A stretch of 64,000 nt of DNA from positions 1 through 64,000 of the forward strand of contig WAOW01000009.1 in NCBI GenBank assembly GCA_015521085.1. The letters run 5' to 3'. Shown piece by piece: positions 1 through 14,199 of this stretch (position 1 is its first letter; each line of letters begins with the position of its first letter). The translations under genes and the position numbers were made by a program. Origin of the DNA: Candidatus Thermodiscus eudorianus. Lineage in GTDB: Archaea > Thermoproteota > Thermoprotei_A > Sulfolobales > Acidilobaceae. The notes below the pieces were generated by a model. That model was not told the DNA's origin and did no database searches. It saw only the letters and a list, made by a program, of their open reading frames with translations.

Positions 1-2563
1 GCTGTTGACGAAGGCTCTTAGTCTTGCTTATTTTGAACTCTCTGCATATCTCGCACTCTATGGCATCACTCTCTCTTAGTCTTGCTTATTTTGAACACGG
101 TTGCTAGAGCCTCTATCTTGAAGGCATCTCTTAGTCTTGCTTATTTTGAACGAGGCGGTAACCGCCTCCCATGCATATTATATGATAACTCTTAGTCTTG
201 CTTATTTTGAACATAAACCTTGAGAACGCTGACCATGTATTATCTCTTAGTCTTGCTTATTTTGAACCGTTGCCGTAATAGTCTACTACAGGCCCCCCCT
301 CTTAGTCTTGCTTATTTTGAACACAAACTGTGTTTTGCGGAGAACGAATGCCTAGACTCTTAGTCTTGCTTATTTTGAACGCGGTGCATAAGAGCAAATG
401 GACCATCCTGGTATGCCGACTCTTAGTCTTGCTTATTTTGAACAAGCCCATACCGGGCCCCATACGGGGGTTGCTCTTAGTCTTGCTTATTTTGAACGTG
501 GTGAACAGCGTTTCAGCCCTCCTAGCCAATTCCAGAAGCTCTTAGTCTTGCTTATTTTGAACGCTACTTGTCCAGGTGTTAACTGGGGCCGCTGACTCTT
601 AGTCTTGCTTATTTTGAACGGGAGCGGTTTGGGGGTATGCGGTCGCACGCATATCTCTTAGTCTTGCTTATTTTGAACACGAATGCCCCTGAGAAACTCT
701 GCGCCTCTCTCTCTTAGTCTTGCTTATTTTGAACGCATCGATATCTGCATTGCTAACGCTGACGTCTCTTAGTCTTGCTTATTTTGAACACGGAGTAGCG
801 AAGGATGGGACTTACACCCTAGCGACTCTTAGTCTTGCTTATTTTGAACGGCATAAACTACTCGTGATAGCCGGAAATGCTACTCTTAGTCTTGCTTATT
901 TTGAACGGGGGAAAGTGGTATAGTGCACCTGTTACCTTGTCAATGGTTGCTCTTAGTCTTGCTTATTTTGAACGAAGAATAAGACTTTTGGAAGAAAGGA
1001 AAGAACTCTTAGTCTTGCTTATTTTGAACAAGTGTGTGAGGGAGGTGCACAGCTGTGAAGCTCCTCTTAGTCTTGCTTATTTTGAACGTAGATTTTCGGT
1101 GTGAATGCTGACTTGGCGAACCCGGAGCTCTTAGTCTTGCTTATTTTGAACTGAAGAAAATGTAACTGTAAAGAATAGTGTTAACGCGCGAGGTCCCTCT
1201 TAGTCTTGCTTATTTTGAACAAGCTTAGCGCCAACTTTAGTGGATACATTCTCTTAGTCTTGCTTATTTTGAACGAACAGGTTGAAGTGCTGGAGAAGCA
1301 TATAGACTCTTAGTCTTGCTTATTTTGAACAAAAAATCTCTGACTGTATAAGGGTGTTGCTAAGCTCTTAGTCTTGCTTATTTTGAACAGTCGATCGTGT
1401 AGCAGTTGGCGTGTGGATTGACTCTTAGTCTTGCTTATTTTGAACTACATGTACCCGAGGCCGGTCAAAATGGCAGCTCTTAGTCTTGCTTATTTTGAAC
1501 TGAAACGGCATAGCTCTACGCACTCGCTGGCTATCTCTTAGTCTTGCTTATTTTGAACTAACCATTTTTTCGGCTTATCTAGTCTTCGATGTCTCATCTC
1601 TTAGTCTTGCTTATTTTGAACTCATCGAGCTTTATAACGCCCGGTCGATCGCTCTTAGTCTTGCTTATTTTGAACTCATCGCTTAGCCAGCCATCGCCCT
1701 CGACTCTTAGTCTTGCTTATTTTGAACTAACCTGCTATACATACATACATACATAATAGAGGTTCTAGTTCCAGGATCTGCTCTTAGTCTTGCTTATTTT
1801 GAACGGGTTACCCCGCTAGTGATGAATCCTAAATGGACTTATACTCTTAGTCTTGCTTATTTTGAACTCTCGGTCCTCTCCTGTGTGGCGTGCTAACGCT
1901 CTTAGTCTTGCTTATTTTGAACATGCGTGGGGTCCCTTGCCTTACTGGGGTGGATCTCTTAGTCTTGCTTATTTTGAACAAGCAGGATAGCCTTCACAGC
2001 CAAGGAGTTGATTCCTCTTAGTCTTGCTTATTTTGAACTAGAGGGAGAAGGGTGCGTATTCGTGTAGGGGATATCTCTTAGTCTTGCTTATTTTGAACAA
2101 CAACGGCTCTGGCGGCTCAGGCTCTGATTCTCTTAGTCTTGCTTATTTTGAACGCGCTAGTCTCTTCATAGTCTGTAGGGATGTTACTCTTAGTCTTGCT
2201 TATTTTGAACTAGACGTAATTCGCGAAGTCGTCGTGAACCTTTTCTCTTAGTCTTGCTTATTTTGAACGGGAAGGAAGAGGTTCAGGGAGCTGATGGAAG
2301 AGCTTGACTCTTAGTCTTGCTTATTTTGAACAGGAGAGGACCGAGACGATAGATATATGGCATGGGACTCTTAGTCTTGCTTATTTTGAACAGGGGGGCG
2401 TTCTTTTCATCCCTATAGAGCTTGCTTCTCTTAGTCTTGCTTATTTTGAACTCAAGACATATATCTTCCCCTCGCCCAGGCAGCTCTTAGTCTTGCTTAT
2501 TTTGAACTACGCCATCCCATACGATACCGTGATCTTTGTCTCTTAGTCTTGCTTATTTTGAAC
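1..2563 (-). CRISPR. CRISPR array 1 (44 repeats, continues past left edge)
   Basis: I count 44 copies of a 24-bp repeat; on the minus strand it begins GTTCAAAATAAG and ends GACTAAGAG. Every copy I read is identical. The first in the window is at 15-38 and the last at 2540-2563. Bases 1-14 are the end of a further spacer, so the array extends left. Spacers are mostly about 30-45 bp, with outliers of 28 bp (1676-1703) and 53 bp (1728-1780). The leader lies at the right end, next to cas1. Transcription is therefore leftward, in line with the cas operon, and the newest spacers should be near 2540. Apparent ORFs here (peptides such as LLVLLILN) are translations of the repeat. Confidence 0.98.
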
Positions 2564-2630
2564 TGGTAGTGTTTGTTATGTTCTTTTACGTCGCCTGTAT
2601 TGGGCCCTACTCCACACAACCGTCAATCTG
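2564..2630 (-). repeat. Leader-proximal element of array 1, inverted copy of 12234-12300
   Basis: Read on the minus strand, these 67 bp are identical to 12234-12300, and both copies abut the first CRISPR repeat of their array. In this copy the segment carries the last 17 codons and TAA stop of cas1 (stop at 2576-2578), followed by 12 nt before the repeat. Sequence identity ends abruptly at 2630. The element is likely the leader region read during spacer integration and possibly the transcribed 5' part of pre-crRNA. That function is inferred from position. Confidence 0.9.
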
Positions 2631-3556
2631 TCTTCTCTGCATTTGCCCTCAAGGTGTTTTGCTAGGCAAAAAGCTTTTAAGTATAAGTGCTGGTATGGGG
2701 TCTTTTTAGTGTCTTTATGTTTTAGTGTTAAGTAATCGTATAGGTATTTTATTGCTGTGTTTACCCATGGGCGGGTCAGTTCTCCTTCGTCTAGTTCTGG
2801 TAAGCCTTCGTTGTTTATTAATGATATTGTGGCTTCTATTGCTATTGGCTTAAACATTTCACTATAATCGAATGTTAAAGGCGTGCTGTAGCGGGTTCTG
2901 TGTAGGAAGCCGTATGTGGGGTCTAGTCCGGCTGCGATTAGAGCTTTTGTGGTTAGCGAGTATATTGTTGCGTACATTACGCTTAGTGTTTTGTTGAAGG
3001 GATCTGGATGTCGTGGTTTTCTACCTTTAAAGCTATATTCTATGTGTAGTTTTTCTAGTATATTGGGGTCGAGTAGGCTCTGTAGGTTACTCCATAATAG
3101 GCTTGAGGCTGTGGATTCCCATAGTCTTATTTCGGCCTCGTATGTATCTGCGTCTTCGATATCTTGTGGTGGTGCTGGGATGTTGGGCGGTTCTACACCA
3201 TGGTATTTTAATATGTTGATCATTCCTTTGATTTTTGCCTCTATGTATCTTAACGCTATACTGAGTGCTTTTATCTTGTCGAGTTGGTACTGTAGCCTTC
3301 TATAGTTGTTATATCTCGTTACTATGGGATTCATCAAGATAGATATACTATCCTTGGCTAGGATCGCCAACGGGATATTGTGAAGGCTCAGGCTGGGAGG
3401 TACTGCCGAGTCTATGGATATCCCGGAGCCTATCACTAGAACCGAGTCTATATCTCTAAGCGCTTTTTCGCTTATACGGTCGCCTATCTTTATTACAAGC
3501 GTTGCCCTACCCTTTATCTTAAGAGTAGCCTTACTTCTTATGACGAGCAACCTCAA
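2576..3556 (-). CDS. cas1: CRISPR-associated endonuclease Cas1
   Basis: Cas1 is the integrase subunit that, with Cas2, inserts new spacers at the leader end of the array. The 326-aa product has the expected family length. It has a beta-rich N-terminal half and a helical C-terminal half carrying the metal-binding residues: Glu in RLWEST (about E147), His in YGFLHR (about H219) and the acidic pair in TFDYSEMF (about D230/E233). It is the last gene of the leftward operon and follows cas4 by 3 bp. Its basic C-terminus (RRRKRT) is encoded inside the leader of array 1, and the stop codon is only 12 bp from the first repeat. The gene looks intact. Confidence 0.96.
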   Translation of the reverse strand: MRLLVIRSKATLKIKGRATLVIKIGDRISEKALRDIDSVLVIGSGISIDSAVPPSLSLHNIPLAILAKDSISILMNPIVTRYNNYRRLQYQLDKIKALSIALRYIEAKIKGMINILKYHGVEPPNIPAPPQDIEDADTYEAEIRLWESTASSLLWSNLQSLLDPNILEKLHIEYSFKGRKPRHPDPFNKTLSVMYATIYSLTTKALIAAGLDPTYGFLHRTRYSTPLTFDYSEMFKPIAIEATISLINNEGLPELDEGELTRPWVNTAIKYLYDYLTLKHKDTKKTPYQHLYLKAFCLAKHLEGKCREDRLTVVWSRAQYRRRKRT

Positions 3557-3559
3557 GGA

Positions 3560-4180
3560 TCATATCACCCTGTAGGGACACTGGCTAGCCAGTTCGCAGA
3601 GGCTACAGAGGTTCGAGTTAGCTTCAAAGTTGCTACTCGGTTTATCTACGAGTTTCAGGAGAGCTACCTGATCCCGGTCTTCAACAACCTTATACATAAT
3701 TTTAAACGGTGATACGATCATTACTATTACTGGAAGCCGGAGCTCGTAGTATAATGCAATAGCCCTTAAGATAGCCTGCCACGGCTTAGCCACGTTAATC
3801 CTGCTCGATGCTATCTCGACATAGAGCGTAGCTAATGTTTTGCCAAGTTTCACATTATAGACTAGATCAGCCTTAGATCTAGCACATAAAAGATCATCGC
3901 CACGATATATCCCAAGCACGTGCTCGTATTCAGGATAAGTTGCCAGAATCCTATCTCCCAGGAACGCGTTGAGATGCTCATCTACAAGCTTCTTCAGAAC
4001 CTTATGTTGACTCTTGCTCTCCTCAGCCGTCGGATATAATGGCTGCTCTAACGGTGTTATCCCATGCCATAGCAGGTCTCTTGCATGAGGACATAGCAAA
4101 GCCCATCCGAGGAGGTTAAGCCTAGTATACCTCGAATCTTCGCTCTTGCACGATGTAGTAATCCTTGCCCTCAAATACAT
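3560..4180 (-). CDS. cas4: Cas4 family protein (PD-(D/E)XK, Fe-S), catalytic Lys apparently missing
   Basis: Cas4 normally trims and selects PAM-containing prespacers for Cas1-Cas2. The proposed product of about 206 aa starts at ATG 4180, inside cas2. The open frame extends to 4399, but that part only shadows cas2, and no other ATG/GTG start lies just upstream of the conserved region. Visible features are an N-terminal Cys (LLCPHARDLLW), the nuclease Asp in SKADLVYN, the Glu in LYVEIASS, a QhxxY-like stretch (QAILRAIALYYE) and a C-terminal cluster CSLCELASQC for a 4Fe-4S centre. The usual D/E-X-K lysine reads Ala (EIA), so nuclease activity is doubtful. The start is uncertain. Confidence 0.85.
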   Translation of the reverse strand: MYLRARITTSCKSEDSRYTRLNLLGWALLCPHARDLLWHGITPLEQPLYPTAEESKSQHKVLKKLVDEHLNAFLGDRILATYPEYEHVLGIYRGDDLLCARSKADLVYNVKLGKTLATLYVEIASSRINVAKPWQAILRAIALYYELRLPVIVMIVSPFKIMYKVVEDRDQVALLKLVDKPSSNFEANSNLCSLCELASQCPYRVI

Positions 4181-4412
4181 GTGCCCTCTGATACTCGTCC
4201 TCTCTAACCACGATAATAAACAGTGAATCGCTGTCTTCAACGAGCTTCTTAGCCTTCTCCGCCACGAGCCTCGCTGTAGTAGCTGTTCCAGGCCCAGCGT
4301 AGACGCTCCTGTTAACTCTAGACAAGCCCAGCCTCCGCAAGTAACGCCGCAATCTACCTCTCCTCGACTCATCCCCAATATCATAGGCGACAATAACAAT
4401 CACCCATGACAC
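4122..4412 (-). CDS. cas2: CRISPR-associated protein Cas2
   Basis: Cas2 is the small ferredoxin-fold dimer that scaffolds two Cas1 dimers in the spacer integration complex. The 96-aa product has the classic first strand VIVIVAYDI with the conserved Asp (about D11), an Arg-rich first helix (RRGRLRRYLRRLG) and the SVYAG strand. The ATG lies 1 bp after the cas3' stop, so the two are translationally adjacent. The 3' end overlaps the proposed start of cas4. Confidence 0.95.
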   Translation of the reverse strand: MSWVIVIVAYDIGDESRRGRLRRYLRRLGLSRVNRSVYAGPGTATTARLVAEKAKKLVEDSDSLFIIVVREDEYQRAHVFEGKDYYIVQERRFEVY

Positions 4413-4413
4413 C

Positions 4414-6546
4414 TCAGATAAAGATTACCGCATATCTTCTGCCTCGTGGTGACATGATTTCTGCTCCTTCTCCCGTATAGGAGAGGTAATCTGTGAGCTC
4501 CTCGCCAGCGTCAACTATGTAGACTAGTGCGTCTCCTGCTTGAATTGGGTCCATAGTGGTGTCTTCGCCAAGGTCTATTCGTCCTTTGAGAGTTTTGAGT
4601 AGTATCTTCAAATCGACGAATTTATCCTTGTAGATGGCCGGATTGCCTAGCACCGATATCCTTACACGTGTTCTGGCTGGCATTAGTGAAATTATTAATT
4701 CTCCGTTATGTGTTAAACCGTGGATAGCGAAGTTTCTCGCTATGAGGCCTATGCTGGATTCTCCCCGCTCATGCGTCTCTTTTACGATGTATTTGACGTT
4801 GAAGCCTGTTCTGCGGAAGACTAGGAGCTTCACGAAAGCGTTGGAGCCTACTACTGACTGGCGGAGTCTTCTTGCATGTTCAGGCGTAATTTTTAGCTTA
4901 TCGTATACTGATTCCATACCGGAAACTCTCGCTACTGAAACTAGGCCGACAGTATATATGAGTCTTCTCCTTGTTTTATGAAATTCGTATGGGATCAGAC
5001 GTGAGACTTCTCTTTTTCTCTTAGGGTAGTTTGGATATATAGTGTTAATTGTGGCTACTAGCCTCCAGTAGTCTAGACCAGTATTGATGTTGTCGATTAA
5101 TTTGAGCTTATTATTGGGGATAACAAGGTATATCTTTGAGTCTATTCCTCTCCGCCCTATCCTGCCTATTCTTTGAATTACGTCCTCGGACGAGATACCC
5201 CCTGTAATGCCTAGAATTACTTTTCCAAGGTTCACCCCTTGCGTTGTTGCTTCGCTACCAACTATTATCTTCGACCCCGGTGTGCAGACCTGGGAGGGTA
5301 CGATACTGGCTATGCACTCCGGTGCAAGCCCAGACGATGCCAGTTTCCTTGCTACGTCTGCTACCATCCAGAGCCTCTCAAGGATGAGTAGTGCCCGGCC
5401 ACCACTCAAGTTTTTAAGTTCATCCATTAAGTCACCTAACACTATACCCGGTACAGCATCACTAGCTTCATAGAATGCGCCTAGCCCTTTCCGCCTAGTG
5501 ACTACAGGTACTATTATAAACTCGGTTCTGCCTCTCACCTTAAACCCTTTTCCATTGCTCACTATCTCTGCTTTCAGTTGATGCACATTTATAGGCGTGT
5601 CAGATAGTTCTTCCTCTAAGATGTCACGTGCTGGTGTTGCGGATGAGAACACTACCGGTTTACCTATAAGTTCCTTATAGAGGTTAAGTAGTGCATGTAA
5701 TGCGTCTACCTCGTATAACCCGTATAGGTGGAACTCGTCGATGAAGAGGGGCTGGTTAAGTATTCTCTGGACAAATGCAATGGTTTCATCAACCTGGCTT
5801 CTGGTTAAGACTCCAGTCTTCCTAAGAATATAGTCTATGTCCTTCCCTTCTTCGATGGCTAGCAATAGGTTTTCTACAGTCTTGTTTACGAGGTCAAAGT
5901 CCCTGTACGCACCCGTCATGACAAGCAAGAATGTGTCAGGAGTTGAGAATACGATAACGTAGATTCCTTGTTTCCTGTAAGATAGTATTTTTCTTGCAAG
6001 GTTGTGGAGAGACTCACGTTTAGGAATACCATTAATGGAAGGAATATACCTGCCGGAGAGTGCTAGGAGTGCCACGTACTTAGCCCCATTCCAAGCATTC
6101 TGGATTCTTTCGGTGTCTATCTCATATATTGAGAGTGGCTCTACACACTCCCGAGACCAGTCTTTATAGCAACACTCGCACCTCCTGGAACTACCTTGCT
6201 CTATATCTTTACACGGTTGCGTCATGCAGTAACCCGAACTGTTGATAAGTCTAGCACCAAAGTGTTCCACAAGTATATCTTCTACAGTGCATAGTTGGTT
6301 TAGGAGCAAAGTGTTGTTAGGGTATAATGCTACAAATCCCGGTGTCCTCGTGTCTATACTATTATTTAGTAGCAGTGTAAGTGTCTTTCCTCCACCGGTT
6401 GGCGCAGTAAGTAAAATATCCTTCTTCTTGTTCAGCAGGTCATAGACTTCTGATTGGAACTGGTTTAGTCTGATAGTGTCTGTGACCTGTTTTTTCGAAT
6501 AGGGTATGGAGAAAGAGGGTACTGTAAAAGAAACAGGGTGCTCCAT
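4414..6546 (-). CDS. cas3: Cas3' helicase of type I-D (no HD domain)
   Basis: This is an SF2 helicase that would unwind and help degrade target DNA after recognition. The 710-aa product has Walker A APTGGGKT (48-55), DEFH box (270-273), SSATP (301-305) and motif VI QRIGRIGRRG. It has no HD nuclease domain; the HD is on Cas10d instead, which is diagnostic of type I-D. Six cysteines (about 107, 112, 123, 125, 126 and 134) lie between motif Ia and the DEFH box and could hold a metal or Fe-S cluster. The gene follows csc1 by 4 bp and precedes cas2 by 1 bp. Confidence 0.93.
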   Translation of the reverse strand: MEHPVSFTVPSFSIPYSKKQVTDTIRLNQFQSEVYDLLNKKKDILLTAPTGGGKTLTLLLNNSIDTRTPGFVALYPNNTLLLNQLCTVEDILVEHFGARLINSSGYCMTQPCKDIEQGSSRRCECCYKDWSRECVEPLSIYEIDTERIQNAWNGAKYVALLALSGRYIPSINGIPKRESLHNLARKILSYRKQGIYVIVFSTPDTFLLVMTGAYRDFDLVNKTVENLLLAIEEGKDIDYILRKTGVLTRSQVDETIAFVQRILNQPLFIDEFHLYGLYEVDALHALLNLYKELIGKPVVFSSATPARDILEEELSDTPINVHQLKAEIVSNGKGFKVRGRTEFIIVPVVTRRKGLGAFYEASDAVPGIVLGDLMDELKNLSGGRALLILERLWMVADVARKLASSGLAPECIASIVPSQVCTPGSKIIVGSEATTQGVNLGKVILGITGGISSEDVIQRIGRIGRRGIDSKIYLVIPNNKLKLIDNINTGLDYWRLVATINTIYPNYPKRKREVSRLIPYEFHKTRRRLIYTVGLVSVARVSGMESVYDKLKITPEHARRLRQSVVGSNAFVKLLVFRRTGFNVKYIVKETHERGESSIGLIARNFAIHGLTHNGELIISLMPARTRVRISVLGNPAIYKDKFVDLKILLKTLKGRIDLGEDTTMDPIQAGDALVYIVDAGEELTDYLSYTGEGAEIMSPRGRRYAVIFI

Positions 6547-6550
6547 AATT

Positions 6551-7231
6551 CTACCTCCTTATTACTGGTAGAACTACTTCATAGAGACGTCTTCCGACCC
6601 TTACTTGGTACTTGAGTGCACGTTCAGCTACACCGAACATGCCGATGTTTCCGGCTTCGTGTGTCATTATTGTAGCGTAGTTGTACACGTTTACAACATC
6701 GTCAGTATTGAACGGATGCGTTACTTGCTTTTGCTCTAATATTTGCGGTTTTATACTAGTTAGCCTCACGAGAAGCACACCCATTCGTTTTGCCCCAATG
6801 TTAATAACCATCTTATCAGGCAACGGGTCTTCAGAGATTACTAGTGTTCTTAACATGCTTCCCGGCATTAGTACAACGTTTTTCGTGAAAAAAGGATATG
6901 CAAGCCTTGACTGGCCTCTAATCATTAGTAGTCCTTCATTGTTTCCTGCCATCAGTACCTCTCCTAGAACCGCTTTGAAAATTAGAGGAGGGTAAGCGTA
7001 GACGCCGTATCTCCTGTATACTTCGAGAGGTCTTTTGTATTTCTTGACGTTGAATTTTGACGCGTATCCTGTGTCTGGGTCTACAATGAAACCAGCTAAG
7101 GCTAGTGTCAGCCCGTAGTTGTGGATGACGGGTGGGATTTGGGATATGTAGTACTGGCTTGATGGCTGTGCCTTGAAGTGATACCATAACATTCCGTCGA
7201 CTCTGATTTCGGCGTGGTAATAGCGTGGCAT
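6551..7231 (-). CDS. csc1: Csc1 (Cas5d), type I-D Cascade subunit
   Basis: Csc1 is the RAMP-fold Cas5 subunit that caps the 5' handle of crRNA in the I-D effector. Assignment rests on its place between csc2 and cas3', its length (226 aa) and its pattern: an aromatic N-terminal beta strand (RYYHAEIRVDGMLWYHFKA), a PPVIHNYG turn and a long basic beta-rich body. There is no catalytic motif to check, so gene order carries much of the call. It starts at ATG 7231, 14 bp after the csc2 stop. Confidence 0.85.
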   Translation of the reverse strand: MPRYYHAEIRVDGMLWYHFKAQPSSQYYISQIPPVIHNYGLTLALAGFIVDPDTGYASKFNVKKYKRPLEVYRRYGVYAYPPLIFKAVLGEVLMAGNNEGLLMIRGQSRLAYPFFTKNVVLMPGSMLRTLVISEDPLPDKMVINIGAKRMGVLLVRLTSIKPQILEQKQVTHPFNTDDVVNVYNYATIMTHEAGNIGMFGVAERALKYQVRVGRRLYEVVLPVIRR

Positions 7232-7245
7232 GGAGGGTTATCCCC

Positions 7246-8274
7246 TCACTTGAGGCCAGAAACTAGTTTATCCATCTGTTCCGCGAAGTCTATACTGGCG
7301 TCCCATAGTTCCTTGAATACTCCGTCTTTTTCTGCTGGGTTTACTCTTGAGAGGATGCCATCGTTGTTTATTGATATGAAGCCCATCTGGGTGATTATTT
7401 CTTTGAGTTTGCTGGTTATTTCGCTCGGTTTCTTGAGGTTCTCACTGGCAATCTTGTCTGCTAGGTCTAGTGCTGTTGTTAATGAGTATGTTCCACACCT
7501 TATTCCTAGGAGCTCTATTTTTACTGTCCCGTAGACGCCGCTTCTTCCACCTATTTCCTCGGTTGTTACGAGCGAGTATAGTACTGCTAGTAGTTCTGGC
7601 TCTGTCACGTCATGCAGGGTTACTCTACCGATGAATAATGTTCCCGGCATGACGTGTATATCGCTGAATAGCGCTCCTCCGGTTGTTGAAATTACTCCTT
7701 CTGTTACCTTATTGTGGGTTTCTGGCTGTACTTGTCTTGAAGTGGCGAATGCAGGGTCGAAGTGAACCCTTGTCTTTATCCCGACACTCATCTTGCTAGC
7801 CTTAGAGTACTGTGCGTCGGTTAGTGCGACTCCGAATATCGTACATGCGGGACAGTAGCCGTCCATTCCTGTGTCGGTGCTTTTTTCTCCGCTCTGTGCT
7901 AGTGGTGGCTGGATGGTGCAGTTCCATCCACTCTTCAAGTGCTCCTTTGCCTTCTTGAATCCTAGTTCGCTTGCCTTCTCTATGTATGGTTTGAGGTCTG
8001 CTCCACTATCCCTGTAGAGCCGGAGTGCTTGTAATAGTCTCCTTCTCACTGTTGCCATGAGCTTTTGTGGCTGGATTACTGGTACGCTTATTCCGCTCTC
8101 TGGTAGTGTAGCTTCGTTAATGTCTCCGGGTCCTTCGGTTCTTAGTAGTAGCATATTGGCCGCTTTTATTGTAAAGACTACCTCTATCTTCTTACCGTTT
8201 GGGAAGATGCGGCCCTCTTCCCCGATACTACGTAGACAGGGCCTAACCTCCTCTAAGATATGCTCGAGACTCAT
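7246..8274 (-). CDS. csc2: Csc2 (Cas7d), type I-D crRNA backbone subunit
   Basis: Csc2 is the Cas7-like subunit that polymerises along the crRNA spacer. The 342-aa protein has the Csc2 zinc-binding signature GYCPACTIFG near residue 140, followed by the KTRVHFDPAF strand and a Gly-rich HVMPGTLFIGRVTL segment. The start codon overlaps the stop of the upstream small gene by 4 bp (ATGA), consistent with coupled translation. Length matches the family. Confidence 0.92.
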   Translation of the reverse strand: MSLEHILEEVRPCLRSIGEEGRIFPNGKKIEVVFTIKAANMLLLRTEGPGDINEATLPESGISVPVIQPQKLMATVRRRLLQALRLYRDSGADLKPYIEKASELGFKKAKEHLKSGWNCTIQPPLAQSGEKSTDTGMDGYCPACTIFGVALTDAQYSKASKMSVGIKTRVHFDPAFATSRQVQPETHNKVTEGVISTTGGALFSDIHVMPGTLFIGRVTLHDVTEPELLAVLYSLVTTEEIGGRSGVYGTVKIELLGIRCGTYSLTTALDLADKIASENLKKPSEITSKLKEIITQMGFISINNDGILSRVNPAEKDGVFKELWDASIDFAEQMDKLVSGLK

Positions 8275-8753
8275 GCCTTCTCACCTCCTTCTTCAGATTG
8301 AGATTCAGGGGAGGAACCGGAATTAGAAAAAATAAATTTATATATTTCTTCCCCGACCGGAGCGCTAACTCCTCGTCTTGCCATTTCAGCTATCCCGGCT
8401 ATTGTCATGTTCATTAGGCGTATCCTCGCACCTATCGGCAGGTCATCCGTCGTTTCTTTGAATCTCTTGAGTAGACCTACAAGCAGTTCTTTAAAGCACT
8501 CCTTCATCTTCGGGCTACGTATTCCAGTAGGTATGTTAGCTTCCGCTACTACCAGTACGTATTCGTCGCTTCTATCCCAGATTGAAAACACTAGTGTATG
8601 CATTGCCCTTCGGATTTCGCTTACATATGCGTGGGTTGACGGCTTGCCGGGCCCTACTACTACTTTCAGTATTGCCGCTAGGCCGGAGGCATAGTGGTCC
8701 ACACCCCGGTCGGGGCTATATTTACATATATCCAACCCTTCCATACTTCTCAC
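8271..8753 (-). CDS. Candidate stand-alone small subunit (Cas11d-like), unrecognised sequence
   Basis: I do not recognise this 160-aa protein by sequence. It lies between cas10d and csc2 and overlaps both by 4 bp, so it is embedded in the effector operon. It is mostly helical, with a Ser/Glu-rich C-terminal tail (GSSPESQSEEGG). In studied I-D systems the small subunit Cas11d is made from an internal start inside cas10d. Here Cas10d ends early and this gene follows directly, so it may be the small subunit as its own gene. The start is GTG 8753 or ATG 8744. The function is inferred from context only. Confidence 0.55.
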   Translation of the reverse strand: MRSMEGLDICKYSPDRGVDHYASGLAAILKVVVGPGKPSTHAYVSEIRRAMHTLVFSIWDRSDEYVLVVAEANIPTGIRSPKMKECFKELLVGLLKRFKETTDDLPIGARIRLMNMTIAGIAEMARRGVSAPVGEEIYKFIFSNSGSSPESQSEEGGEKA

Positions 8754-10606
8754 CCCAACCTGTTCCTCAAAAATTCAAGAGTAGAATAAAGACCGGGCGA
8801 GGCATACTGGACTAGTAGGGGAGCGTATTCCGGAGGATAGTCGAGAATCTCTAGTAGTGCAGGGAGATTTTCCTTCTTGTTTTTCCTGTAATTTAGCTCT
8901 GAGAGAGCTAACATAGCGGTTGCAACATAAGGTGTGTATGCGCCGAGCTTCTTGTCTCTCGGCTGATAGTCGTATAACGGTCTTCTTCCCTTGTAGTATG
9001 TCAGTAGCGTCTCGGAGGGCGTGGACGGAACGGTTTCAGATACTGTGATCGGGTAAAAGCCCCATGCAGACAGCACTCCCGCTGTTACAATGTCACGGAG
9101 CCATTCGTCCTGATGTTGTTTCATTTTATTTCTATACGGGATTATAATAGTTGATGAGAACGCGTCGTAGAAGTAGTTCGGTGTCTCTGCCACATCTAGG
9201 CTCTCGCCTATTTCTTTAAGCTTCTTCTCGAAAATATCATAATCGCTATATATGAGACCCTCTACCGTAGTGGACCCTGGTATGCCTGTTCCCAGATTAA
9301 ACTTGAGAACGTATAGAAGCTTTCCAACTTCCTCTAGGACTTGGATTGGTGTTAGTGCCCTTACCGTCAAGCTTATGAGATACTGATATTGAGCTTGCCC
9401 CCTTATTATCGCTTCTCCTAGGCATAGCGGGTCTACTGCATAGGGCTTCACATCTTGCATAAGCCTGTTAACGCTTCCTGGGAAAAGAGAGCGAGTCCAC
9501 TGTTCTGTTGTCGCATTGCTCGAAAAGAACTGTAGGAAATCTCCTGTGACTCCAGCAGGTGTTTCAACACCGCATACAGGGCACTTCACAGCCCCCTTCT
9601 GATAAGATACACCATTAACTACGACACCGTTGAACATCCCCTTAACCTGCTCTGGCAGGACTATAGTGCCCTTAACCCTATTCTTGTAGCCGAAGTACAT
9701 TAACGCTATCTCATAGGAGCTCCTCTTTTTATTCCGGTACAGGCCTTTCTCGCAGTCTCTCTTCGTGAAACCGTGTTGTTTACATTCTTCTGGCTTACTT
9801 CTCTTACTGCATCTTTGTTTACACTCCGGGTTATGGCAACATTCGAAGTTCCACTTCAGGTTCTCTTCTAATCCTCCAGGGATTATGCCACTTCCATCGA
9901 AACCCTTTCTTATGTCATCCCAGTCTATGGTAACGGTTAAGTTTAGTTGGTCTGTTATTACTGCTAAGCCGAAAGGTGTTGCAATTGGTAATATGAACGT
10001 ACCTTTTGCTTGTATTTCGTTTATCTTCTCATGAACAAGTCGGCTTATCAGAGTCCTAAATAGTTGTTGCGGTATCATAACGTTTAGCAGACTTACATTG
10101 AGGTTCAGACCCAGGTCTTCTTTGGCTTTATTAAGTAGCGGAACTATGTCGAAGGGATTCTCGATTCCTTGCAATCTGTCTGCTAGCCATAATAGTCTCC
10201 ATATTTTATCGTCATATAAGGGGTCTCTGTTTCCCTCCGCTGGATTTGTATAGAGATAACGTGATAGCTCATCAGCCTCTCCGGGCGTAAAGCCTACTGC
10301 TTCTAATCTTTCCTTCACCCATGCTATTAGCTTACCCTCAGATGGTTTATCCCTTAACTTAATTTTCTGCCCCATATCGTGCAAAAATCCTATTACGAAC
10401 GCCTCTTTAGCCTCAGGAGCATCAATGTTACCAGCTATACTGTAGGCTTGAATGAACTCCTGAAAGGCCCTAGCTACGGTGTAGCTGTGTAGTAGGAGGC
10501 TTATGCTTGTCCAGTATTTTGCTGGTAGTGCTGATAGTGGTGGTGGTAAGAGTGTGTATGCTGTTTTGAGTCTTTCGGAGATGACTTCCAAGGGATTTGT
10601 CCCCAT
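8750..10606 (-). CDS. cas10d: Cas10d (Csc3), type I-D large subunit with HD nuclease domain
   Basis: This is the large subunit and the DNA-cleaving component of the I-D effector. The 618-aa protein has an N-terminal HD domain: His at about 40 (LLHSYTVAR), FLHDMGQK (H76/D77) and Asp in LWLADRL (about D143). A Cys-rich insert follows (C256, C257, C262, C266, C275, C285), then a second CPVC pair (342-345). No GGDD cyclase motif is seen, as expected for I-D. It is the first gene of the leftward operon, with ATG 10606 about 25 bp from a TTAAATAC box. It is shorter than the cyanobacterial Csc3 proteins I know, and its missing C-terminal part may correspond to the next gene. Confidence 0.9.
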   Translation of the reverse strand: MGTNPLEVISERLKTAYTLLPPPLSALPAKYWTSISLLLHSYTVARAFQEFIQAYSIAGNIDAPEAKEAFVIGFLHDMGQKIKLRDKPSEGKLIAWVKERLEAVGFTPGEADELSRYLYTNPAEGNRDPLYDDKIWRLLWLADRLQGIENPFDIVPLLNKAKEDLGLNLNVSLLNVMIPQQLFRTLISRLVHEKINEIQAKGTFILPIATPFGLAVITDQLNLTVTIDWDDIRKGFDGSGIIPGGLEENLKWNFECCHNPECKQRCSKRSKPEECKQHGFTKRDCEKGLYRNKKRSSYEIALMYFGYKNRVKGTIVLPEQVKGMFNGVVVNGVSYQKGAVKCPVCGVETPAGVTGDFLQFFSSNATTEQWTRSLFPGSVNRLMQDVKPYAVDPLCLGEAIIRGQAQYQYLISLTVRALTPIQVLEEVGKLLYVLKFNLGTGIPGSTTVEGLIYSDYDIFEKKLKEIGESLDVAETPNYFYDAFSSTIIIPYRNKMKQHQDEWLRDIVTAGVLSAWGFYPITVSETVPSTPSETLLTYYKGRRPLYDYQPRDKKLGAYTPYVATAMLALSELNYRKNKKENLPALLEILDYPPEYAPLLVQYASPGLYSTLEFLRNRLG

Positions 10607-10667
10607 TTATTGTATGGGTTGAGGTAGTATTTAACCTTTTATATCTGATTTGGTTGTTATTCTACTG
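10607..10667. promoter_or_regulatory. Divergent promoter region of the two cas arms
   Basis: These roughly 60 bp separate cas10d (leftward) and csa3 (rightward). AT-rich boxes are visible in both directions: a TTTTATAT-like box near 10636-10643 for csa3, and TTAAATAC on the minus strand near 10628-10635, about 25 bp before the cas10d ATG. Spacing suggests leaderless or nearly leaderless mRNAs. The Csa3 regulator encoded alongside is the obvious candidate to bind here. The boxes are seen; the regulation is inferred. Confidence 0.5.
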
Positions 10668-11324
10668 GTGTTGGTTGAATTGGGGTTGTGTTTGGTTATG
10701 CCGGTCGGGGTTACTGGGGAGACTGTTAGTGAGCTCTTGCGGCGGGTGGAGCCTCCATCGTGCATAGTTAGTGTGACTATTCCTGGGTTTGAGGGGGAAA
10801 AGGAGAAGATTAGGGATGCAAACGAGTCTCTTGCGAGGATGCTGGGGGCGAAGCATTTCTGGGTTGTAGTTAGGCCTTGGATCGCGAGGGATGTGGTGAG
10901 GATCTTAGAGTGTGTCGAGGAGGCGGAGGCTGACAGATTATTGGTTGTAACCATGACAGGGAGCCGATACCTTTACCTTGTCCTGTTGGAGGTAGCGTTG
11001 TTCTACTGGAGGACTGGGGTTGAGGTCTCTGTTATCCATGGGGTCGAGGGAGGGGATTATAGGATAGAGCCGCTAGCCGGTTATGTGGCTCCGTGTCTAA
11101 GGCTTACTAGGGAGCAAGAGAAGTTACTACTACTAATCTATAGTACAGATAAAGTGCTATCGGGTTCGAGGTTGATGAAGGAATATGGTTACAGTAAAGT
11201 CGTCTACAAGCTACTTAGTGAACTAGAGCAGAAGGGCCTGTTAAGGGTTAGGCGAAACCGAATCGAGAAGACATTCCCAGGCTACATTCTATATGAGATA
11301 ATTAAACATGCCAGGGGTGAATAG
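10668..11324 (+). CDS. csa3: Csa3-family CARF-wHTH transcriptional regulator
   Basis: Csa3 proteins sense cyclic oligoadenylate or a similar ligand through a CARF domain and regulate CRISPR genes. The N-terminal 130 or so residues show alternating strands and helices typical of CARF (MPVGVTGETVSELL, then DRLLVVTMTGSRYLYLVLLEVA). The C-terminus is a winged helix (LTREQEKLLLLIY...SKVVYKLLSELEQKGLLRVR). The open frame reaches TTG 10650. I prefer GTG 10668 because it is about 27 bp from a TATA-like box; ATG 10698 would cut the first strand. It overlaps cas6 by 17 bp. Confidence 0.82.
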   Translation: MLVELGLCLVMPVGVTGETVSELLRRVEPPSCIVSVTIPGFEGEKEKIRDANESLARMLGAKHFWVVVRPWIARDVVRILECVEEAEADRLLVVTMTGSRYLYLVLLEVALFYWRTGVEVSVIHGVEGGDYRIEPLAGYVAPCLRLTREQEKLLLLIYSTDKVLSGSRLMKEYGYSKVVYKLLSELEQKGLLRVRRNRIEKTFPGYILYEIIKHARGE

Positions 11325-12177
11325 TCGCTTGGAGAACGTTAAGGCGATCAGAGCATGGTTAACTATTGAAGCCGAAGAGCCGATAGCTACATTCACCGGG
11401 CAACTCGTCAAAACACTCCTCTACACTCTAAACAGGGAGATAAGGCTACTGCATGGAATGCGGGGAATCATATCGCCCATCCACATATCACCTTTATTCA
11501 CGCCTGGAAGGAGGTTTCACGAGCTAGGCACGCTAGTCACACCACTATACCGGTACAATAAAAATGTAAGAGCATATGAACTCGACCCCATCAAGCTAAA
11601 CGGGGAATACGTTATCCACATAGGGGGAGACGCGTCTCTCATAGACTTGGTCTCTAAGAGCCTTGCTAGGCTAAGGTCGAGCCTGATGCTAAAGTATACG
11701 GACAATATAGTAACGTTTAAACTAGAGAAAATAGAGGACGTGACAAGCCATATATCCAGGAAAAACCTAGATAGCGATAAGATCACACTATACCTCAAGG
11801 GACCCGTCAAACCGTTCAACGTAATAGCACCATCGCGACTCCCAAAATTCAGCATATCCTCATATGAAATACTAATCACGGGCTACATGTACTTCAAGAG
11901 AGTCTACACGCTAACATACCACGAGGTGGTAAATGCAATGAGAATACTAGGCCTCCTAGTCGAAACATACTACAGCCTAAACACGGTCAAGCCAGTACTC
12001 ATTCCCTACAAGGGCAAAGAACCCGCGATGATAGGCAAAATCACATATATCGTCGATACAAACAAACCAGAAGAAAAACAAACACTAAATAAAATACTTA
12101 ACATAGCAGAAATAACAGGAACAGGAGAATCGCGTAGCAACGGCTTCGGAACAGTAACCTGGATCACCAAGACATAG
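11308..12177 (+). CDS. cas6: Cas6 crRNA-processing endoribonuclease
   Basis: Cas6 cleaves pre-crRNA within the repeat. The 289-aa product shows two RAMP-like halves and the C-terminal Gly-rich loop characteristic of Cas6 (GTGESRSNGFGTV, about residues 271-283). An N-terminal His (LLHGMRG, near residue 49) could be catalytic, but Cas6 active sites vary. The start ATG lies inside the last codons of csa3. It is the last gene before array 2 and is co-directional with it, the stop being about 123 bp from the first repeat. Confidence 0.9.
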   Translation: MPGVNSRLENVKAIRAWLTIEAEEPIATFTGQLVKTLLYTLNREIRLLHGMRGIISPIHISPLFTPGRRFHELGTLVTPLYRYNKNVRAYELDPIKLNGEYVIHIGGDASLIDLVSKSLARLRSSLMLKYTDNIVTFKLEKIEDVTSHISRKNLDSDKITLYLKGPVKPFNVIAPSRLPKFSISSYEILITGYMYFKRVYTLTYHEVVNAMRILGLLVETYYSLNTVKPVLIPYKGKEPAMIGKITYIVDTNKPEEKQTLNKILNIAEITGTGESRSNGFGTVTWITKT

Positions 12178-12233
12178 ACGCCTTAATAAGGTTTCCGCCC
12201 AGAAAACAACTTAAACTCACCATGTCTAACTCG
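12178..12233 (+). promoter_or_regulatory. Candidate promoter of CRISPR array 2
   Basis: This stretch lies between the cas6 stop and the duplicated leader element. It holds a purine-rich run followed by CTTAAAC (about 12210-12216), a plausible BRE/TATA. Initiation about 25 bp downstream would fall near 12238, almost exactly where the element shared with array 1 begins. This suggests the shared 67 bp are the transcribed leader. Array 1 has no TATA at the same spacing; its nearest match (CTTAAAAG, about 2676-2683 on the minus strand) lies inside cas1. Confidence 0.45.
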
Positions 12234-12300
12234 CAGATTGACGGTTGTGTGGAGTAGGGCCCAATACAGGCGACGTAAAAGAACATAACAAACACTACCA
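12234..12300 (+). repeat. Leader-proximal element of array 2, copy of the cas1 3' end
   Basis: This is a 67-bp perfect inverted copy of 2564-2630. Bases 12235-12288 spell the last 17 codons and stop of cas1 without any cas1 gene attached, followed by the same 12 nt up to the first repeat at 12301. Upstream of 12234 the sequences are unrelated. Array 2 therefore carries a leader apparently derived from the array 1/cas1 junction, or both descend from a common leader into which cas1 has grown. Confidence 0.9.
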
Positions 12301-14199
12301 GTTCAAAATAAGCAAGACTAAGAGTGTATTCGAATTTTCGGCATATTTCCTTGTGTATAGTTCAAAATAAGCAAGACTAAGAGCCCATTACCTGGCACGG
12401 CGTCTTTATCGTCTTCCCGTTCAAAATAAGCAAGACTAAGAGTCTCCGAGGACGAGCTAGAGGACCTAGTCGAGGCTCTCCAGGGCCTGTTCAAAATAAG
12501 CAAGACTAAGAGTGGCCCTAGCCGTCATCTCCTTAAGTGCTCGTTCAAAATAAGCAAGACTAAGAGTTAATAAAGAAATACTATGAGGAAAACCCTGTTC
12601 AAAATAAGCAAGACTAAGAGCAAACGTCCAATCCGCCAGATCCCAGTGACTTAGCCCGTTCAAAATAAGCAAGACTAAGAGTGCTCCGCCATTTTTCCCT
12701 GGCCTCCAGGGCCCGTTCAAAATAAGCAAGACTAAGAGATTGGAAGGTCGCTGTCAGGCTACTCGACTCTTCAAGTTCAAAATAAGCAAGACTAAGAGTT
12801 GATACACGGGGGTTTGGTGGGTGGGTTATCGTTGGTTCAAAATAAGCAAGACTAAGAGCTCATAGCAAGATACCGTTCAACCTCATCCCTCCCCAGTTCA
12901 AAATAAGCAAGACTAAGAGAGGGTGCTGGAGCATGGAGCTGGACGAGGTCCGTTCAAAATAAGCAAGACTAAGAGAACAGCGGCATGCACTGGGACAAGT
13001 GCTATCGAATGTTCAAAATAAGCAAGACTAAGAGACATCCTCCCAATACGGGTAATCCACCTCTAGTTCAAAATAAGCAAGACTAAGAGGGATACCCGCC
13101 GAATGGGGCGAGGAACAAACCAAGTTCAAAATAAGCAAGACTAAGAGTCCATGGACATAGCCAGACTCCCACTCTCCCTTTAGTTCAAAATAAGCAAGAC
13201 TAAGAGATAATCGAGTTCGTAAGAAATGGTGTTACAGTAGTTCAAAATAAGCAAGACTAAGAGACGCCCTGCAACAACTCCCGCTGCACTGTCGGTTCAA
13301 AATAAGCAAGACTAAGAGGGCGGTGCTAGGAAGCTGGCTAGTAAGGCCTTCGTTCAAAATAAGCAAGACTAAGAGTATCATCATTTATAGCGAATCCATC
13401 CTGTCTAGTTCAAAATAAGCAAGACTAAGAGTCCAGTTTACCTTGCCGGTCACTCCACTCCAGTTCAAAATAAGCAAGACTAAGAGTTGTATACGCTGTG
13501 CCATATATCCAGGTAGATCCTGGTTCAAAATAAGCAAGACTAAGAGCCGTCAGCGAGGCGAGTAGCCTAACAATATTAGTTCAAAATAAGCAAGACTAAG
13601 AGTCGACTCCAACACCACGATATCATACTTCACAGTTCAAAATAAGCAAGACTAAGAGCGCTAAGCCTGTGCAGCTCAAGTAGCGAGGCCTTCCGTTCAA
13701 AATAAGCAAGACTAAGAGCATGCACTGGCCACCAATCCAACAGCGGACTCCACGTTCAAAATAAGCAAGACTAAGAGAAGTGGCTCGTGGCCCCGTTCGT
13801 ATTATCATGTTCAAGTTCAAAATAAGCAAGACTAAGAGGGAGTACCCCTTGTACCCGAGGAGACGGCTAGGAACTGGGTTTATCGCTATGTTCAAAATAA
13901 GCAAGACTAAGAGAGGATCAGGCTTATCTCGGCCTGTGTGCAGCTGTTCAAAATAAGCAAGACTAAGAGAGCATAACAACCCAGAACCTGACGGTCGAGC
14001 TAGTTCAAAATAAGCAAGACTAAGAGATGAACGATATAGCGTCGAACCTGTCGTATCCCGCGTTCAAAATAAGCAAGACTAAGAGGCGACTGGATGGCGA
14101 GGAAGGCCGAGAAGAGGGTTCAAAATAAGCAAGACTAAGAGCTAATGCTTTTATGAACATTTTCCTTGCGTATTCGTTCAAAATAAGCAAGACTAAGAG
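12301..14199 (+). CRISPR. CRISPR array 2 (33 repeats)
   Basis: There are 33 copies of the same 24-bp repeat as array 1, in opposite orientation, starting at 12301 and ending at 14199. All copies I read are identical, including the last; no degenerate terminal repeat is seen. Spacers are mostly about 30-40 bp, with a 51-bp outlier at 13839-13889. The leader is on the left, next to cas6, so transcription is rightward. The end of the array is about 30 bp from the stop of the convergent DUF1152 gene. Confidence 0.98.

Follow-up and report, generated by a model that had tools for sequence, protein, structure and literature searches.

A type I-D cas operon between two inverted CRISPR arrays

The window, which is the whole stretch of 64,000 nucleotides analysed from the genome of the thermophilic archaeon Candidatus Thermodiscus eudorianus (G000), contains a type I-D cas operon flanked by two inverted CRISPR arrays (Table 1). 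Each of the arrays follows a cas gene and runs in the same direction as that gene; array 1 (A1) lies beyond cas1 and array 2 (A2) beyond cas6. The assignment to type I-D follows from cas10d, from csc1/cas5d and csc2/cas7d, and from the presence of a separate cas3' helicase gene, cas6, cas1 and cas2. The position of the small gene between csc2 and cas10d is kept in several relatives. This gene possibly encodes a separate Cas11d-like small subunit.

None of the A2 spacers is the same as any A1 spacer. A1 is cut by the contig end, and the start of a second contig of the assembly (G000:C8:1-1625) carries 27 repeats, the last of which is degenerate. This second array is probably the leader-distal continuation of A1.

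Table 1. Positions of the arrays, leader segments and cas genes in the window.
Feature	Position	Strand	Remarks
CRISPR array 1 (A1)	1..2563	-	44 perfect 24-nt repeats within the window, to the window edge; leader side at 2563
Repeat-proximal leader motif AAAAGAACATAACAAACACTACCA	2564..2587	-	common to noncoding leaders of relatives; contains last cas1 codons and stop
A1 leader block, 67 bp	2564..2630	-	identical to 12234-12300; cas1 last 17 codons and stop
cas1, 326 aa	2576..3556	-	
Distal part of copied block within cas1	2649..2681	-	codons for LKAFCLAKHLE; TATA-like CTTAAAAG at start (2674-2681, -118)
cas4-like gene	3560..4125	-	without profile match; called by position and C-terminal CSLCELASQCP motif; 5' end uncertain
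cas2	4122..4412	-	
cas3' helicase (Cas3d)	4414..6546	-	
cas5d / csc1	6551..7231	-	Cas5d E = 9.6e-56
cas7d / csc2	7246..8274	-	Cas7d E = 2e-26; Pfam Csc2 E = 1e-52
Small gene between csc2 and cas10d	8271..8753	-	overlaps cas10d end; without profile match
cas10d large subunit	8750..10606	-	PADLOC Cas10_Id E = 1.1e-108
CARF regulator (Csa3/CasR-like)	10650..11324	+	
cas6	11308..12177	+	
Decayed distal part of cas1 copy	12182..12214	+	begins 5 nt past cas6 stop; TATA-like CTTAATAA at 12182-12189 (-119)
A2 leader block, 67 bp	12234..12300	+	exact copy of cas1 3' end; noncoding here
CRISPR array 2 (A2)	12301..14199	+	33 perfect repeats

The shared leader block is the 3' end of cas1

We compared the sequences abutting the first repeat of each array. 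As a preliminary description of this locus had claimed, the 67 bp at this place are identical in the two arrays and inverted relative to each other (67 of 67 bases), and in both arrays the block is followed by the same 24-nt repeat (GTTCAAAATAAGCAAGACTAAGAG). A whole-genome search found only these two full copies in the assembly, both of them at array starts. Chance is excluded as the source of this identity. In A1, the block includes the last base of cas1 codon 309, codons 310-326 (RLTVVWSRAQYRRRKRT) and the TAA stop, whose end is separated from the first repeat by 12 nt. The further claim that cas1 coding DNA stands in the leader position of A1 is therefore correct. This short distance differs from that in seven unfused relatives, where 116-292 nt separate the cas1 stop from the first repeat (G384, 116; G115, 121; G065, 137; G169, 163; G250, 196; G038, 273; G324, 292).

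The block has some of the features by which CRISPR leaders are recognised and lacks others. It directly adjoins the first repeat, and it carries a repeat-proximal motif that is common to the leaders of the family. Leaders are also noncoding and A+T rich; the A1 copy is cas1 coding DNA, and G or C is found at 31 of the 67 bases, compared to 51% in the window. With their opposite directions and identical leader ends, A1 and A2 are paired inverted arrays, as are the arrays of two further genomes, G116 and G115.

In a four-row alignment, the Cas1 proteins of relatives remain alignable over the shared codons, and residues W315 and Y320 do not vary. These codons thus have homologous counterparts in the Cas1 of relatives whose leaders are ordinary and noncoding, so cas1 is the source of the block and A2 carries the copy. 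This agrees with the earlier proposal that one of the leaders arose as a copy of the other, and gives it a direction, from the cas1 side to the cas6 side.

Similarity between the leaders resumes beyond 67 bp

The preliminary description also stated that identity stops sharply outside the block. This is true of the exact match, but similarity resumes at about -86 to -119, counted from the first repeat. Here, A2 at about 12182-12214 aligns collinearly with A1 at about 2649-2681, with agreement in 26 of 34 columns, two gaps included. The alignment is better than expected from dinucleotide shuffles (p = 0.0075), and its score was reached by none of 20,000 random segments of the window. Because similarity resumes this far out, the original copy must have been about 120 bp long. 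Its middle part has since decayed, and the inner 67 bp were either retained or renewed.

A second genome has the same layout

The same cas1-array fusion, which had been proposed as something to look for in related genomes, was found in G116 (locus L009; Desulfurococcales archaeon EvPrim.Bin23). This metagenome-assembled genome (MAG) belongs to the same order but to another family, and its Cas1 is about 65% identical to that of the window. The layout is the same in both genomes. In G116, the leader of the second array, which lies downstream of cas6, repeats the cas1 3' end at 122 of 125 bp, and this copy begins at TTTAAAAG, where the window copy begins as well. G116 is a low-coverage MAG (4.6x), and the fused genomes found are only two. 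When the block DNA was searched against 229 genomes of the class, strong matches were limited to G000 (two places), G116 (two places) and the cas1 gene of G114. Searches for Cas1 relatives in viral contigs and for the block in plasmids gave no hits.

The two copies match closely within each genome, at 98-100% over the block (67 of 67 bp in G000 and 122 of 125 bp in G116). Between the two genomes, only 57% of the bases and 48% of the residues agree over the last 25 aligned codons. This match within genomes and divergence between them implies that, after the two lineages separated, the copies were renewed, either through gene conversion or through repeated duplication. The two arrays of G116 carry different repeat variants, which have either T or C at position 9. 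An array gains new repeats by duplication of its first repeat (PMC3396285), and the two arrays must therefore have grown separately.

The G116 cas1 frame passes through the leader and the first repeat, and its stop lies in the first spacer (L009:10200-10293). The junction holds one extra C that is absent from the second copy; if this is a read error, the stop falls in the first repeat. Unless it is, the predicted Cas1 C-terminus of G116 would change with each new spacer.

A Cas1 tree grouped G000 and G116 weakly (69/87), whereas concatenated Cas proteins did not group them. In view of this disagreement, a single origin of the fusion is only a possibility.

Short or solitary repeats were also observed elsewhere. 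In G114, a relic array of two repeats (L070:11039-11117) lies only 36 nt after the cas1 stop. This genome also has an array in the opposite direction at the contig end, and cas6 was not found on that contig. Two genomes have, downstream of arrays, similar genes for a small membrane protein with a lone CRISPR repeat at the 3' end (L010:13379 and L073:9335). Both of these repeats match the repeat variant of their own genome, and in L010 the gene ends inside the repeat. In a single-contig genome (L049; G005:C1:933480), a leader-like stretch is followed by one solitary repeat of the same family as that of the window.

The repeat-proximal motif and the Cas1 C-terminus

We scored leader ends with a weight matrix made from the last 24 nt of the leaders of eight unfused relatives. 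The window junction ranked among the best 0.004% of all 24-mers in the window (p = 0.02 versus its own shuffles), and the A2 junction of G116 also scored highly (p = 0.0035). The G114 relic fits the matrix as well, with a score of 13.8. The Cas1 residues KRT and the stop fall within this leader-end motif of roughly 24 bp. A search for a hairpin in the leader end gave no support for one in the window (z = 0.59).

By comparison with related leaders, the last ~24 bp are the best candidate for an integrase site, or anchor, of Cas1-Cas2. In a Sulfolobus islandicus leader, Cas1 binds from -25 to +7 and Csa3a from -143 to -94 (PMC9456107). The earlier suggestion that the shared part is what Cas1-Cas2 reads is supported only in part: the proximal ~24 bp show the family-wide motif, but the rest of the block is conserved between genomes only as Cas1 codons.

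It had also been suggested that the leader role shapes the basic C-terminus of Cas1. Relatives with noncoding leaders end in SYKRQIAR, NYTKI and KNYK. As these unfused relatives also have basic tails, we rejected the leader role as the origin of the basic Cas1 tail. Nor did a synonymous test single out codon conservation beyond coding need, giving p = 0.03 for G000 and G116 but p = 0.009 for an unfused control pair.

A possible promoter at the outer edge of the block

A TATA-like pattern, chosen after seeing the sequences, has one match on the cas1 coding strand, at -118 on the outer edge of the block; the other three leaders (window A2 and those of G116) have it at -119, -125 and -126. On the basis of this pattern, a promoter at -118 within the cas1 codons is plausible. 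By analogy with the S. islandicus leader, the distal part from -86 to -119 may represent a promoter or regulator site. Unlike several noncoding leaders, the block is without a TATA-like site near -40. In Pyrobaculum, AAAAACTTAAAAA is an ultra-conserved promoter-like element of 37 arrays, and purifying selection or gene conversion has been proposed as the cause (PMC3396285).

Alternative explanations

Read-through from cas1 and cas6 is a serious alternative to a promoter in the block. The arrays would then be transcribed as the tails of cas operons (cas10d to cas1 and A1; csa3-cas6 and A2), and only the last ~24 bp would matter, for integration. That both arrays directly follow cas genes in the same direction is in line with this, as is the lack of a TATA-like site near -40 where several noncoding leaders have one. 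Read-through leaves unexplained, however, both the identity of 67 bp and the extension of the copied block, in the two genomes, as far as the TATA-like point. We consider it unlikely to account for the locus.

An improbable explanation is that the start of A1 (67 bp and array) underwent a single recent inverted duplication, so that the identity reflects recent age and the cas1 codons have no lasting leader role. An exact match of 67 of 67 bp with an abrupt outer end speaks for such an event. Against it, the decayed homology beyond 67 bp shows an older and longer copy, G116 shares the arrangement with near-identical copies, and the junction carries the family motif.

We also doubt, rather strongly, that the leader came first and that the cas1 frame was extended into an existing noncoding leader, the tail codons being leader sequence read by accident. 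This is true for the very end, since the family leader motif includes KRT and the stop, and the continuation of the G116 frame into the first repeat or spacer also speaks for it. Most of the block contradicts it: only the last ~6 codons fit, relatives with separate noncoding leaders conserve the codons as far as Y320, and it is A2 that carries cas1 codons and not the reverse.

A misassembly as the origin of the second copy is highly improbable, since each copy has its own outer flank and its own spacers, and G116, as an independent MAG, has the same layout, even though the assembly is fragmentary (10 contigs) and A1 runs off a contig end.

A probable leader within the integrase gene

We consider it likely that, in this inverted pair of arrays around a type I-D operon, the A1 leader lies inside cas1 and a cas1 end of ~120 bp was copied to A2. 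According to this reading, noncoding DNA after cas1 would have been lost, so that A1 now begins 12 bp past the cas1 stop and the leader is within the gene. Such a leader would consist of two layers. The first would be the family motif of ~24 bp, the putative Cas1-Cas2 anchor, which the last Cas1 codons and the stop have entered. The second would be the upstream cas1 codons, beginning with the TATA-like CTTAAAAG at -118, as a possible source of promoter or regulator sites. The A2 leader just past cas6 is a copy of the roughly 120-bp cas1 end, and its proximal 67 bp would be kept identical through copying between the leaders, by gene conversion or renewed duplication. This copying most likely runs from cas1 to A2, because only the cas1 copy is also under selection on Cas1. 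Both arrays of G000 would presumably take up new spacers.

One stretch of DNA thus probably serves both as integrase coding sequence and as part of the site at which that integrase makes its insertions. A more far-reaching possibility, which we raise tentatively and hold to be rather doubtful, is that the integrase gene contains, within its coding sequence, the very leader at which integration takes place. The C-terminal end of Cas1 would then evolve jointly with the DNA site that Cas1 recognises, and both would be passed on to the second array by copying; in G116, every new spacer could rewrite the C-terminal residues of Cas1.

If our reading is right, selection acts on the same DNA in two ways, for the protein that it encodes and for its share in the site where this protein carries out integration. 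It would provide a natural case where synonymous changes separate leader function from coding need, and would show how small an archaeal leader can become. Leader copying between arrays would also become visible, as the source carries a reading frame.

Comparison with known systems

A search of a partial literature collection found no report of a leader that overlaps a cas gene or lies inside cas1 coding DNA. The closest loci are those of the seven type I-D Thermoproteota relatives (G115, G065, G038, G324, G384, G169 and G250), which have the same Cas1 family and the same order of cas1, leader and array. They differ in that their leaders are noncoding and their arrays begin 116-292 bp past the cas1 stop. 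One of them, G115, also has an inverted array on the cas6 side with an identical leader (119 bp run), which is noncoding. In G041, a genome of the same genus as the window, the leaders are noncoding and two of them are identical over their last 52 bp, which makes a common core of such length unremarkable.

The type I-D leader of Synechocystis resembles the one described here in having motifs, one of which is similar to an integrase anchoring site. It differs in its length of 202-220 bp and its own promoter, and the available part of that report mentions no overlap with cas1 (PMC10212523). In Pyrobaculum, an element of the CTTAAAAA type is common to all arrays studied, whereas the similar element here lies in cas1 codons at -118, where a promoter role is only inferred (PMC3396285).

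Paired inverted CRISPR loci with identical leaders are described for the type I-A system of Sulfolobus islandicus REY15A (PMC9456107). Like the window, REY15A has arrays in opposite directions with identical leaders, and the Cas1 and Csa3 sites given there are comparable in position to the two conserved parts found here. The available part of that report describes no coding leader, whereas in the window the leader is the cas1 3' end, of about 120 bp, in a type I-D system. Paired inverted arrays with identical leaders are therefore already known. What is new is that the shared core is cas1 coding DNA and that A2 carries a noncoding fragment of cas1.
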